DNA of 64,000 bases from Pseudomonas sp. M30-35 (lineage in GTDB: Bacteria; Pseudomonadota; Gammaproteobacteria; Pseudomonadales; Pseudomonadaceae): NCBI RefSeq assembly GCF_002163625.1, contig NZ_CP020892.1:1054001-1118000 (forward strand), written 5' to 3'. A program made the position numbers and the translations under genes. Shown here in pieces: positions 35,223 through 61,715 of the stretch (position 1 is its first letter; every line of letters begins with the position of its first letter). The notes below the pieces were generated by a model, which did no database searches, was not told where the DNA came from, and worked only from the letters and a program-made list of their open reading frames with translations.

Positions 35223-35334
35223 TGTATAACGAAATGGCCGGCCAGAATTGATGATGACCGCAGGAATGGCGCGGATTCTAGCATTATGCGGGGATATGGT
35301 GTAGGCGAGAGGTGAATCATTCTGGAAACCCAGA

Positions 35335-35713
35335 AAGCACTGAGGGAGCCGAAGCTCCCTCTTAAATTGTTGCGTGCTTTATTTTTATTATTATTTCGGG
35401 CTTGTTGTTTTTGTTGAATTGCCCGTTCCTTCTGGTCAAAGACCTCAGGAAAACCTCTCAAGTTGAGAGTTAATAGCAAACGGATTTCTTTGGATGCTGA
35501 CAGTGCGATGATCATTCCGTGACCCAACCAGTTCAGGTGCTGCCTAAGAGCAGTTTTGTTGTTCTCTACCTGGTCGCGGGGCAAGCCCCAAAAGCATATC
35601 CTCTACCCAAAAGAATCAGTTTTCTGCGCCTCCTGTCCTATTGTTTTTATTGTACTGGAGTCGTTACGTTTTATTTTTATTGTCTTGTTTGCTGCTTGTT
35701 ATTGTTGTTGTGC
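35335..35713 (-). ncRNA. crcZ: CrcZ, Crc/Hfq-sequestering RNA
   Basis: The region between cbrB and pcnB is where Pseudomonas carries CrcZ, the RNA that titrates Hfq/Crc and relieves catabolite repression. On the minus strand it begins near G-35713 with GCACAACAACAATAACAAG and contains at least five A-rich CA motifs (AACAA-type) at about 35695-35713, 35668-35690, 35640-35653, 35554-35565 and 35401-35418. It ends near a GAGGGAGC-TTCG-GCTCCCTC hairpin (35342-35361). The size of about 380 bases is close to the known RNA (about 400). The start is set by the sigma-54 promoter just upstream; the exact 3' end is uncertain because the T-run after the hairpin is weak. Confidence 0.87.
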
Positions 35714-53768: not shown

Positions 53769-54557
53769 TTGAACGTTATTTATCGTTTACAGCGTGGTTT
53801 ATTAATTTTTATCAGCGGCTTTACACTGGCAAGCTGTGGTTTTGCGGGTGATGCAGCAAAGGAGGGTGCGTTATCCCTTGTTTCATTCGGTGGGGCGGAT
53901 ACCTTTACTTTACGCGGTACGCTGCCCGCCAACTTCAAGATAAAAGCCCAAGCCTATTATGGCTCGGAAGATGGCGCGTGCAGCGCGCGCGGTGATGCGA
54001 ACTCTTATGAAAGTACGCAGGATAAAACACCACATAATTATAAGTTTAAAATACCGGTTAGTTATCACAAAGGCTTATGTACGCTAACCCTTGCTCGGGT
54101 GGCGCTCTATACAACAGGCCGGTACGGCGAGAAAGGTTGGCAGGAAATATATGATAATGGTGAGCTCAGGGTTGTTGATAAGTTGCCTGCCAAGGCCCCT
54201 GACTTTAATGCGCAGGGTGAATTGGTTAAAGTCGCACAGTGTAGATGGTTGTTTCAGCTAACTAAAGCTAAGTCCAGACTTGGTCAGATAGATAAGCAGC
54301 TAGATTGTAAGAGTCTCGGTGCTTATGTTGTTACTGAGAACCTACCGGGAAAAGTCTTAACTATAAATATAAATGAAAGTCCCGAAGAAGTGCCTGCGAT
54401 TGGTGATACATGGATTAAATTTCCACAGGGCTGGCGACCATGTTCGGAAAAGAAAACTGAGTCTGGCACGTGGTCGTGGTGTGAAACACCTCCTGAATTT
54501 AGAACGTTTAAAATGGGTGATAAGACGTGCACCTATTACCCAAATTGTACGGAGTAA
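53769..54557 (+). CDS. Predicted lipoprotein, probable type VI immunity protein (copy 2)
   Basis: 262 residues. TTG start with SD AAGGAG 11 bases upstream; it begins six bases after the copy 1 stop. The signal peptide has the lipobox L-A-S-C-G (Gly at +2) and is identical in its first 35 or so residues to copy 3. The central region is shared with both others, but the last 80 residues diverge (P-A-I-G-D-T-W-I-K-F-P-Q-G-W and K-K-T-E-S-G-T-W-S-W-C-E-T-P), keeping Cys positions and the end Y-Y-P-N-C-T-E. This may alter which effector it neutralises. The coding sequence is AT-rich compared with neighbouring core genes. Confidence 0.75.
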   Translation: MNVIYRLQRGLLIFISGFTLASCGFAGDAAKEGALSLVSFGGADTFTLRGTLPANFKIKAQAYYGSEDGACSARGDANSYESTQDKTPHNYKFKIPVSYHKGLCTLTLARVALYTTGRYGEKGWQEIYDNGELRVVDKLPAKAPDFNAQGELVKVAQCRWLFQLTKAKSRLGQIDKQLDCKSLGAYVVTENLPGKVLTININESPEEVPAIGDTWIKFPQGWRPCSEKKTESGTWSWCETPPEFRTFKMGDKTCTYYPNCTE

Positions 54558-54563
54558 ATTAGA

Positions 54564-55349
54564 TTGAACGTTATTTATCGTTTACAGCGTGGTTTATTAA
54601 TTTTTATCAGCGGCTTTACACTGGCAAGCTGTGGTTTTGCGGGTGATGCAGCAAAGGAGGGTGCGTTATCCCTTGCCTCATTTGATGGGGCGGATACCTT
54701 TATTTTACGCGGTACGCTGCCCGCCAATTTCAAGATAAAAGCCCAAGCCTATTACGGTTCGGAAGATGGCGCATGCAGCGCGCGCGGTGATGCGAATAGT
54801 TATGAAAGTTCGCAAGATAAAACACCACACAATTATAAGTTTAAAATACCGGTTAGTTATCACAAAGGCTTATGTACGCTAAAACTTGCTCGGGTGGCAC
54901 TCTATGCAACAGGCCGGTACGGCGAAAAAGATTGGCAGCAAACCTATGATAATGGCGGCTTAAGACTAGTTGATCCATTACCTGCGAATGCCCCTGATTT
55001 TAGTGAACAAGGGGAATTGCTCGTTAATTCACAGTGTACGTGGAATTTTAAAATGAGTCAGGCGATATCTAGGTCTGGTGAAATTAGCAAACTCTTAAAC
55101 TGCAAGAATCTGGGTGCTTATGTTGTTGGTGACACTCTCCCGGAAAAAGTGTTGACGTTAAATATAAATGAAAATTCTGAAGAAGAACCATATATGAATG
55201 GTTACTGGCTAAAGACCCAAAGCGGTTGGAAACCATGTACCGGTAGATGGGGGACTGACTATGAAGAACTTTGCACGTCACCACCGGAATTTAGAACTTT
55301 CCGGATGAATGATCAAGAATGCAGCGTTTACCCAAACTGTAAGGAGTAA
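54564..55349 (+). CDS. Predicted lipoprotein, probable type VI immunity protein (copy 3)
   Basis: 261 residues. TTG start, SD AAGGAG, and six bases after the copy 2 stop, i.e. the same junction AAGGAGTAAATTAGATTG-type sequence as between copies 1 and 2. The N-terminal 36 residues match copy 2 (lipobox L-A-S-C-G), the C-terminal 50 match copy 1 (K-P-C-T-G-R-W-G-T-D-Y-E-E-L-C-T-S-P-P), and residues about 145-195 are unique. It is thus a mosaic. The lipase gene follows seven bases downstream, so all are one transcript. Confidence 0.75.
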   Translation: MNVIYRLQRGLLIFISGFTLASCGFAGDAAKEGALSLASFDGADTFILRGTLPANFKIKAQAYYGSEDGACSARGDANSYESSQDKTPHNYKFKIPVSYHKGLCTLKLARVALYATGRYGEKDWQQTYDNGGLRLVDPLPANAPDFSEQGELLVNSQCTWNFKMSQAISRSGEISKLLNCKNLGAYVVGDTLPEKVLTLNINENSEEEPYMNGYWLKTQSGWKPCTGRWGTDYEELCTSPPEFRTFRMNDQECSVYPNCKE

Positions 55350-58756: not shown

Positions 58757-59344
58757 CTAGTCCGATTTGTTGTTCTGCCAGCGCGGCGCTTCCAGAGGTT
58801 GCCAGTTTTGCAGCAGCTTGAGCAGCTCACCCGGAGTCTCGCTGAGCTGCAGCATGGCGCGGTGATTAGCGCGCACGAACTGCTCTTCTACCAGTTGATC
58901 GAGAAACGCTCCCAGCTTGCTATAGAAACCGTTTACGTCGAGTAAGCCCAGTGGCTTGTTGTGGTAGCCAAGTTGCGCCCAGGTCCAAACTTCAAATAGC
59001 TCTTCGAGAGTGCCCAACCCGCCGGGCAATGCGATAAAGGCATCGCTAAGCTCAGCCATACGTGCTTTACGGGCATGCATGCCATCGACCACTTCCAGCC
59101 GGGTAAGGCCTTGGTGACCGACTTCAGCGCGTTTTAAGCTCTGTGGAATAATGCCAATTACCTCACCGCCTGCTGCCAGTGCTGCGTCTGCGACAATCCC
59201 CATCAGGCCTACAGCACCGCCACCGTACACGAGGCGGATGTTGTGCTGGGCAAGGTGCTGGCCGAGTCTTACTGCAGCTTCGCGGTAGATCGGATTGGCC
59301 CCGGTACTCGCTCCGCAGAACACACAGATCGAACGCAAGGTCAT
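58757..59344 (-). CDS. LOG family protein (cytokinin riboside 5'-monophosphate phosphoribohydrolase type)
   Basis: 195 residues of the TIGR00730 Rossmann-fold family, which hydrolyse nucleoside 5'-monophosphates to base and ribose phosphate. The motif [13 protein letters not shown] (about 107-119) contains the catalytic P-G-G-x-G-T-x-x-E; the N-terminal [14 protein letters not shown] and [13 protein letters not shown] are the nucleotide-binding segments. A decayed copy of its 3' end is present 1.1 kb away on the same strand. Confidence 0.92.
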
Positions 59345-59411
59345 GGCTTCACTCCTGAGTAATTAGCTGCTCAGGTTAGCCGTTCTAGCTGGGCAAAACC
59401 AAGGGCGTTTG

Positions 59412-59501
59412 TTAGTCGACGCTAACCCCGCTATTCCCACCTGCATAAGCGGCAAGCAGGCTTTGCAGCAACTGACTGAAATGACTCTGTTGGCTATTCA
59501 T
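59412..59501 (-). CDS. Candidate 29-codon small protein
   Basis: M-N-S-Q-Q-S-H-F-S-Q-L-L-Q-S-L-L-A-A-Y-A then G-G-N-S-G-V-S-V-D. The ATG at 59501 follows AAGGAG by seven bases, an excellent SD, and the reading frame has an amphipathic Gln/Leu-rich helix and a Gly/Ser tail. It is located between the LOG gene promoter region and the box array, in the orientation of the LOG gene. No family is recognised. It could be a real microprotein, a leader peptide, or chance. Confidence 0.4.
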   Translation of the reverse strand: MNSQQSHFSQLLQSLLAAYAGGNSGVSVD

Positions 59502-59594
59502 GATCTTGCTCCTTGTTGATAAAGCAAGCTTAGGCTCGGCAACGAGGGTTGGCTTGTTGATTGAATTGATCGCACCGATAGCTTTTCAGCACAG

Positions 59595-60713
59595 TTGCAC
59601 ACAAAGACTGTGGAACGAGCTGTGGGTAACATGGGCGTATGCCGCTGCACCCTAAGTAATTAGGGCGTTTGCAGTTGTTGTATGTTTTTTGACCAGCTTT
59701 TGAAAGTGCACAGTATTTGAGTCGTGAATGAGTTATCCACCTCCTGATTCCGCGGATTAAGTTGTCCACGACTACTGTGGGTAGCCCTGTAGATAACTAG
59801 GGTATGCATTGCTGCAGGCTCGTAAATACGCGGCATGCATGGAGTTGGTTGTTTTTTGAACAGCGTTTGGATCGGGTAAATTGCCCGGCTTTGCGTGCGC
59901 ATAGTCAAGCAAATCTTTAGCGATTCTCAGTTTGGGCGGAAGTTGCTATGCACAGTTATCCAACTTCTCTGTGGAGTGCCCTGTGCATAAGCTGCGGGCT
60001 AAGTCGTAGAAGCCTTGAAAGACTAGGTCTACAGGGTGATGTACGTTTTTTGATCGATAATGATTAAATAGTTGACTCAATAAGTTAATAACAGCTAAAT
60101 GGATGACTTGACGATAATCCATAGTTGTCCACGGCTACTGTGGGTAGGCTTGTTGATAACTATTGTATGTATTGTTACAGCCCAATGAAATCAAGCTTTT
60201 ACGACTATTGGTTGTTTTTTGATCAGTGCTTTTGCGGGTTAGAAATCTTGCTGGGAGGGCCAGATAGTCAAGCTTTTATTCAGTTATTTCAGGGCGTGGC
60301 GTAGATGATGTGCTCAGTTATCCAGTTTCTCTGTGCAGCATTCTGTGGATAACCTGCGTGCTAAGTCGTGCGAGCCTTGAAAGACTAAGCTTACGGCGTC
60401 TTGTGCATTTATTGATCAATACTGATTAAATAAGCAAATCAGAGAGTTACATAAGTAAGGATAGGGTTTGGCAGACTATTAACAGTTGTTCACGACTACT
60501 GTGGGTAGGCCTGTTGATAACTATTGTATGCATTGTCACAGCCCAATGAAATCAGGCGTTGCCGGCCGTTGGTTGTTTTTTAAACAGTTGTTTTGTGGCA
60601 AATACAGCTTGGCTTCAAGCCCCGATAGTCAAGAAATAATTCAACTATTTCAGTGGCTTGGCAATTAGGTGTGCACAGTTATCCCAGTTCTCTGTGTGTG
60701 GTTCTGTGGATAA
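59595..60713. repeat. Array of seven DnaA-box-like triplets with alternating spacing
   Basis: Non-coding array of seven 35-bp modules at 59595, 59762, 59956, 60125, 60318, 60486 and 60679. Each has a forward 9-mer like TTATCCACA, 5 bp, a reverse 9-mer like TGTGGGTAG, 3 bp, and a reverse 9-mer like TGTGGATAA. Perfect TGTGGATAA occurs at 60344 and 60705, and TGTGCATAA at 59982. Spacings are 167, 194, 169, 193, 168 and 193 bp, so two module types (A: 59762, 60125, 60486; B: the rest) alternate in units of about 361 bp. A T-run (GTTTTTTGA-like) follows each module by 55-65 bp, then AT-rich DNA. No convincing gene fits 59502-60803. Function unknown. Confidence 0.75.
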
Positions 60714-60803
60714 CCTGCGGGCTAAGCGGTGTAGGCCACGTAAGACTAAGCGCAGCCAAAGTTGTACGTTTTTTGAGCAGATGTAAGCCGCAGACTCTTT
60801 AGC

Positions 60804-61715
60804 TTATTCGCTAAGTGCGCTAATGCGTGTAGGGCGCCCTAGCAACTGCAGGGCGCGGTCGGGATAGTCGGTGATCAAGCCCTGAGCTCCGAGGTTCAGT
60901 AGTTTGCGCATCACTGGCTGCTCGTTGATTGTCCACAGTTGCACGCTCAAGCCTCGTGCTTTAGCCGATTCGAATAATGCGCTACTGGCAAGCTCCACGC
61001 CGCTGTGGCGTGGGGGAATCTGCAGTACCTGGTATGAGGGGGAAAGCACGCTGCTTAGCCCTAGCCAGTTCATGGCAATTAATAATCGTATTGAGCTGGG
61101 GCTGGCTGAGGTGGCCACACCGGGGCAACGCTCACGCAATCGTTGCAGGCTGGATTCATAGAAGCTGGCAATAATTACCCGGTCGCGCTGTGAATAGGTT
61201 TCTAGGCTCTGGCACAGTTTGTCCACAAGGGCGTTGTCAGCGACCTTTAACTCAATGACCTTGGCGATTGCGGGCTCAGCTTGCAGCACCGTTTCTAATT
61301 GCGGAATAACAATACCTTGATCGCGATATGGGTAGCTTTGACCGCCATTGGCAGTCCAGCTGTAGCCTGCATCCAGCTGTTGCAGTTGCTCTAGGGTAAA
61401 ACTGTCTACAAGGCCTTCGCCATCCGTGGTCCGGTCGACACTATCGTCATGGATAACCACGATTTGCCCGTCACTGGTTAGCCGCACATCCATTTCCAGC
61501 ATATCCACACCAAGTGCGCTGGCGCGCTGAAAGGCGAATAGGCTGTTTTCTGGCCACAATCCGCGGCCGCCACGGTGGGCAATAACCAAGGCTTGTTCGC
61601 CAAGTGAGCTGAGTACTTTTGGCGTTTGTGCGGGCTTGCTAGTCAGCGCCAGCACGGTGAGGGTGATGGCGACAAGCAACGTGGGAGCAATTAGAAAGCG
61701 GACGACGCGCAGCAT
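60804..61715 (-). CDS. Glycerophosphodiester phosphodiesterase
   Basis: 303 residues. An N-terminal membrane segment (about 5-25, L-I-A-P-T-L-L-V-A-I-T-L-T-V-L-A-L) acts as anchor or signal, so the enzyme lies at or beyond the inner membrane. The TIM-barrel active site has A-H-R-G-G (about 46-50) with the catalytic His, G-L-W-P-E-N-S with the metal-ligand Glu, E-M-D-V-R-L-T-S-D and I-H-D-D-S-V-D-R-T-T-D-G, all canonical GDPD motifs. It hydrolyses glycerophosphodiesters to glycerol-3-phosphate and alcohol. The box array lies immediately downstream. Confidence 0.92.
   Translation of the reverse strand: MLRVVRFLIAPTLLVAITLTVLALTSKPAQTPKVLSSLGEQALVIAHRGGRGLWPENSLFAFQRASALGVDMLEMDVRLTSDGQIVVIHDDSVDRTTDGEGLVDSFTLEQLQQLDAGYSWTANGGQSYPYRDQGIVIPQLETVLQAEPAIAKVIELKVADNALVDKLCQSLETYSQRDRVIIASFYESSLQRLRERCPGVATSASPSSIRLLIAMNWLGLSSVLSPSYQVLQIPPRHSGVELASSALFESAKARGLSVQLWTINEQPVMRKLLNLGAQGLITDYPDRALQLLGRPTRISALSE

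Follow-up and report, generated by a model that had tools for sequence, protein, structure and literature searches.

Why should a single intergenic gap of 1459 bp in the genome of Pseudomonas sp. M30-35 contain seven modules of DnaA-box-like 9-mers, all laid out to one measure? The gap lies in the window that we analyzed (the whole stretch of 64,000 nucleotides, whose numbering we use throughout), between a LOG-family (TIGR00730) gene assigned by family search (58757-59344, minus strand), with its start codon towards the array, and a glycerophosphodiester phosphodiesterase-like gene (60804-61715, minus strand; its matches fall under the curated cut-offs), with its 3′ end towards the array. In E. 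coli, where DnaA reactivation has been worked out, two non-coding sites recharge the initiator. Among the ideas put forward in a preliminary description of this DNA, reactivation of DnaA is the one that fits best, as DARS1 and DARS2 of E. coli share the layout and part of the flank, and the register holds genus-wide; going by these sequence features, we consider the region probably to be a tandem array of seven candidate DARS-like (DnaA-reactivating) elements.

Layout and history of the array

All seven modules, on the plus strand, consist of a forward 9-mer (box I), 5 bp, a reverse 9-mer (box II), 3 bp, and another reverse 9-mer (box III), and both this register and the seven module starts given in the preliminary description were recovered in full. 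Module 1 (59595-59694) has box I at 59595-59603, box II at 59609-59617, box III at 59621-59629 and a Fis-like site at 59680-59694. The others, with the starts of their three boxes in order, are module 2 (59762-59861; 59762, 59776 and 59788; Fis-like site 59847-59861), module 3 (59956-60055; 59956, 59970 and 59982; Fis-like site 60041-60055), module 4 (60125-60224; 60125, 60139 and 60151; Fis-like site 60210-60224), module 5 (60318-60417; 60318, 60332 and 60344; Fis-like site 60403-60417), module 6 (60486-60585; 60486, 60500 and 60512; Fis-like site 60571-60585) and module 7 (60679-60778; 60679, 60693 and 60705; Fis-like site 60764-60778). The distances from start to start are 167, 194, 169, 193, 168 and 193 bp.

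Box III is the good box, with at most one mismatch to TTWTNCACA; the earlier statement that each module carries 9-mers close to the consensus is thus right for box III and too generous for boxes I and II, which have 2-3 mismatches. The perfect boxes that had been claimed are there, exact TGTGGATAA at 60344 (module 5) and 60705 (module 7), as is TGTGCATAA at 59982 (module 3). When a triplet was defined by at most one mismatch in box III, at most three in each of boxes I and II, and at most six in total, the gap yielded seven, as compared to a mean of 0.003 and a maximum of 1 in 1000 dinucleotide-preserving shuffles. A scan of 169 spacer combinations in the gap returned all seven triplets at 5/3, one at each of two other combinations and none at the remainder. 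Under the box III rule there was no triplet on either strand in the rest of the window; with that rule dropped, one extra triplet appeared, on the minus strand at 59617, where it overlaps module 1.

The alternation of two module types described earlier applies to modules 2 to 7, which alternate between types M (modules 2, 4 and 6) and B (modules 3, 5 and 7), but module 1 belongs to a third type rather than being a diverged copy of either: its identity is 73% with the first module of a relative and 48-60% with the other six modules of the window. In relatives, three modules are found next to LOG, glycerophosphodiesterase or urease accessory genes, and when 12 modules of four relatives were compared with the seven of the window, 10 were closest to the expected type (first modules to module 1, second modules to 2/4/6 and third modules to 3/5/7); the exceptions were two third modules (loci L010 and L043), which lean towards the second type or match it equally well. 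Given these matches, the array is best read as 1-(M-B)x3, in which the last two modules have been duplicated. Module 4 is 71% identical to module 2 and 87% identical to module 6. One relative (G041) has nine strict modules at this locus.

Two smaller features accompany the array. A 25-bp element starting ATAGTCAAG occurs at 59901, 60264 and 60625, 52-55 bp upstream of each type-B module, and has counterparts in relatives when these are compared by eye; it is a possible protein site. Between the array and the LOG gene is a 29-codon open reading frame (59412-59501, minus strand) with a Shine-Dalgarno-like AAGGAG. Similar short open reading frames with an LLxxLLxAYAxGxxG core turned up at the equivalent position in L049, L043, L050 and L041, four of the six other loci tried, and none was found at the remaining two, L045 and L051.

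The conserved unit and its Fis-like site

Conservation extends beyond the triplet. In an alignment of 42 Pseudomonas modules of our own choosing (A1, from which 16 modules were left out), 41 of the 42 are gap-free over 104 columns, with a mean column identity of 67%. Because this unit of approximately 104 bp reaches some 65 bp beyond box III, the array spans about 59593-60784. The T-run said to follow each module sits at one fixed column and is present in all modules of the window, but this does not extend to the whole alignment, in which six of 42 modules have fewer than five T, mostly with A instead. Also 3′ of box III is a partial dyad (columns 54-61 with 73-80), paired in 66% of cells. Its covariation score was 0.236 as compared to 0.174 in shuffles, with 2 of 500 shuffles as high, and pairs changed on both sides showed no excess over shuffles (312 of 500 as high); we interpret it as a weak dyad of the DNA duplex.

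At column 88 lies a Fis-like site, G-N2-YR-N5-YR-N2-C with an A/T-rich centre, in 7/7 modules of the window and 39/42 of the aligned modules (38/42 when counted independently of the alignment), and no other column between 38 and 96 carries such a site in three or more aligned modules. Box III and this site are 62 bp apart, centre to centre, which is about six turns of the helix. The site is found at column 88 in 11 of the 16 left-out modules and is absent there in five; among these modules, too, every other column stays below three. Because the modules of A1 were our own choice, we repeated the test on loci of the class picked by the core alone, a search that gave 27 matches in 23 of 274 genomes (the reversed pattern gave 0); columns 88, 89 and 90 hold 3, 11 and 3 Fis-like sites, that is, 17 of 29 cores, a total in which two cores are counted twice, L112 and L125 overlapping. 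In this set, three such sites occur at no other column in the range 41-131.

The count of 7/7 uses the relaxed YR rule for Fis sites. The strict published consensus, GnnYAnnnnnTRnnC, fits one of the seven (module 5), the other six having G at position 5. Elsewhere in the gap there is one further Fis-like match outside the modules, at 59403. A Fis homologue is encoded in the M30-35 genome (60% identity across the matched part), and one is present in 16/16 single-contig Pseudomonas genomes. IHF-like matches occur in the window, at no fixed module column.

Comparison with DARS1, DARS2 and datA

DARS2 of E. coli, in the region upstream of mutH, is 455 bp long, needs IHF and is activated by Fis in growing cells. 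In both DARS1 and DARS2, box I is opposite in orientation to boxes II and III and the spacing is equal, as described in a review (PMC5742627), and with the layout of the Pseudomonas modules we located the corresponding triplet at DARS1 (L056:1608) and in the DARS2 region (L057:1136, with a weaker second one at 1452). A sequence-only model, R1, built from the 42 Pseudomonas modules with zero E. coli sequence, was scanned against 115 kb of E. coli DNA, accepting matches at E 10 or better. Four matches were returned, and the top two were DARS2 (20.5 bits) and DARS1 (18.4 bits); the remaining two, at 8.7 and 6.0 bits, both lie in the gap before mutH. Neither datA nor oriC of E. coli gave a match at E 10.

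The likeness to DARS1 extends beyond the order, orientation and 5/3 spacing of the boxes: the alignment to R1 is gap-free over columns 1-87, and the dyad arms GCAAGC/GCTTGC of DARS1 fall at the same columns as the Pseudomonas dyad. These arms lie in the flank, as does the region of about 50 bp flanking DARS1 that is reported to enhance ADP release (PMC5742627). The lengths are similar as well, 101 bp for DARS1 (PMC5742627) and about 104 bp for the Pseudomonas unit. DARS1 differs in being a single copy, at bioD-uvrB, in having an exact box II whereas boxes I and II of the window modules have 2-3 mismatches, and in showing no Fis-like site near column 88. For DARS2 the match covers columns 3-64; the core layout is the same and Fis is used, but DARS2 has IHF-like sites at columns 96 and 112 followed by a Fis-like site at 148, whereas the Pseudomonas unit has its Fis-like site at 88 and no fixed place for IHF. 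Just before mutH (L057:1630-1651), a Fis-like stretch with a T-run matches the 3′ portion of the Pseudomonas unit; it is far from the DARS2 core and may be due to chance.

Other comparisons are looser. Like most of the Pseudomonas modules, datA (L058) is a non-coding cluster of DnaA boxes near oriC, but no triplet with the 5/3 layout was found in it at the threshold used, and it has no R1 match. The ColE1 origin is reported to carry a DARS of 70 bp whose three DnaA boxes reactivate DnaA (PMC5835720); it sits on a plasmid origin, and we liken it to the modules from that description. In E. coli ChIP-seq, DnaA is reported to prefer tandem boxes 2-3 bp apart, the pairs of DARS1 and DARS2 being among them (PMC11317965), and the box II-III pair of the Pseudomonas modules has the tandem arrangement of these DnaA-bound double boxes. 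Calculated from coordinates, the distances from oriC, as fractions of the E. coli genome, are 0.10 for datA, 0.21 for DARS2 and 0.33 for DARS1.

Distribution, competing explanations and proposed mechanism

R1 matched all 149 Pseudomonas genomes searched (E 1e-4 or better), with 4-18 modules in each and a median of 11, so that the search across Pseudomonas genomes proposed in the preliminary description bears out a register kept throughout the genus. Across the class, matches were found in 107 of 274 genomes, Pseudomonas sp. M30-35 included, and in a search of the phylum in 49 of 200, many of the matches in other classes spanning only the first 40-50 columns. The M30-35 genome is one contig, 4.93 Mb in length, in which dnaA lies at 5.9 kb with exact boxes upstream of it; the genome has 11 modules at four places (E 1e-4): two at 0.58 Mb, the seven of the array at 1.11 Mb, and one each at 1.65 and 1.67 Mb. 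The pair at 0.58 Mb (L054:5733-5952; 583.7 kb) and a pair in another genome (L144 of G036) lie in the gap that separates a gcvR-like ACT-domain gene from an EamA-family gene. Two modules also occur in Pseudomonas species with larger genomes, flanked by a liv-type transporter gene and by SDR or CDF genes; the neighbours at this two-module locus were assigned by family search to a liv-type branched-chain amino acid transporter, an SDR and a CDF protein, and an epimerase-like protein. Among 55 loci of the class, viewed to about 1.5 kb each way, there was no recognisable mutH, rppH or bioD beside the modules, and the three UvrB matches obtained were weak (31-33% identity). A blastn search for plasmid relatives gave no match.

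For a census of position we used 16 single-contig Pseudomonas genomes, in which 189 of 191 matches at E 0.001 could be placed: 146 of the 189 modules lie within 0.15 genome length of dnaA, 167 within 0.25 and 22 beyond. The share within 0.15 went from 125/153 to 146/189 on the addition of 36 matches, because weaker matches are more spread. Both chromosome arms carry modules in 15 of the 16 genomes; in M30-35, all 11 are on one side.

This ori-proximal placement is what one would expect if the modules were a titration or datA-like inactivation array, soaking up DnaA or speeding ATP hydrolysis soon after initiation, since modules near oriC double early. There are about 11 modules per genome, with three boxes in each, and enrichment of DnaA boxes near the origin has been called favourable for titration in E. 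coli (PMC12371093). However, datA has no R1 match while both DARS sites match, boxes I and II look weak, and simple titration would need less than a rigid unit of 104 bp that combines an opposed box I with a Fis-like site. We think the datA-like locus suggested earlier unlikely, if still the most serious competitor. That the modules are instead DnaA- and Fis-dependent regulatory sites for their neighbours (LOG here; gcvR-like, EamA, liv-type and other genes elsewhere) appears improbable: the array does lie upstream of the LOG gene, and in E. coli DARS1 is found upstream of uvrB and DARS2 upstream of mutH, DnaA being a regulator of genes (PMC11317965), but neighbours vary by cluster and species while the module is constant, and sigma-70-like promoter matches are not above those in shuffles.

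Still less probable is an array of structured repetitive RNAs or terminators, also among the earlier proposals. Each module has a T-run and short inverted repeats, one of the seven folds at z -2.3, and the covariation score of the dyad is above that of 498/500 shuffles; yet the other six folds have z-scores of -1.6 to +1.3, RNAalifold predicts no pairs from the 42 modules, the dyad is paired in just 66% of cells, the T-run becomes an A-run in some modules, the array has no Rfam match at gathering thresholds, and terminator matches, like those to promoters, are at chance level. A mobile or REP-like repeat, passively kept, would account for units repeated at several sites and is hardly credible for a unit with just 11 copies at four places in the M30-35 genome (E 1e-4), a module pair in the gcvR-like/EamA gap of two species, and gap-free alignment of 41/42 modules over 104 columns. 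As for an origin of replication, dnaA at 5.9 kb and the array at 1.11 Mb led us to reject the array as the main oriC, and we consider the second origin mentioned in the preliminary description unlikely, as dnaA and its neighbouring exact boxes are 1.1 Mb distant.

We thus favour reactivation over titration on account of the opposed box I, the rigid unit, and the likeness to DARS1 and DARS2 with none to datA. Four properties expected of a DARS were found: an opposed box I (7/7), the 5/3 spacing, sequence likeness beyond the boxes, and a Fis-like site. Against them stand the weakness of boxes I and II, the lack of a fixed IHF site, the fit of only 1/7 sites to the strict Fis consensus, and a position more like that of datA. 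Binding of DnaA to the modules is very likely and is the safest prediction, since E. coli DnaA favours sites of this kind, in which two boxes, one of them good, stand in tandem with 3 bp between them; from the likeness to DARS we infer, in addition, nucleotide exchange on DnaA, binding of Fis, release of ADP and an effect on initiation.

One could envision the following sequence of events for a DARS-like element of about 104 bp, in which a core with box I facing tandem boxes II and III, 3 bp apart, is followed by the dyad and then by the Fis-like site. DnaA would bind the II-III double box cooperatively, and DnaA on box I would meet DnaA on box II head to head through their AAA+ domains, loosening ADP, a mechanism that comes from work in E. 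coli (PMC8682772). Apo-DnaA would then depart and reload with ATP, the more abundant nucleotide. Fis would bend the downstream DNA, making the element active in growing cells as at E. coli DARS2, and the arrangement of modules in tandem, with some 11 per genome, would multiply the capacity for exchange and link it to the gene dosage of the oriC region. We regard as evenly balanced the broader proposition that the DnaA cycle of Pseudomonas is run by a distributed family of Fis-equipped DARS, about 11 per genome as compared to two in E. coli, grouped in clusters that range from one module to nine or more and recur at the same places, mostly around oriC, the 104-bp unit being an ancient gammaproteobacterial element of which DARS1 and DARS2 would be derived, partly stripped forms.

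DARS-like sequences are said to occur in many proteobacteria (PMC10380432), and conservation of DARS2 has been shown for species related to E. coli, including Vibrio and Shewanella (PMC8682772). In the part of the open-access literature that we searched, we found no account of DARS in Pseudomonas, of tandem DARS arrays, or of a Fis site at a fixed distance in each unit; what appears new is thus a multicopy, tandem form of DARS with a built-in Fis-like site, its DARS function being predicted from sequence. The presence of such modules throughout the genus, mostly near the origin, suggests that Pseudomonas may time replication with many sites where E. coli uses two. If this is true, genomes with 4-18 copies offer a natural series for asking how reactivation capacity, dosage and Fis time initiation, the 104-bp consensus indicates which parts of the DNA flanking DARS1 matter, and copy number would be an evolvable dial for the timing of initiation.

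Elsewhere in the window, two tandem, closely similar lipoprotein-like genes followed by a lipase-like gene (53769-55349, plus strand) were named by eye, and an Rfam search identified the Pseudomonas small RNA CrcZ, at full length, at 35307-35711 on the minus strand.
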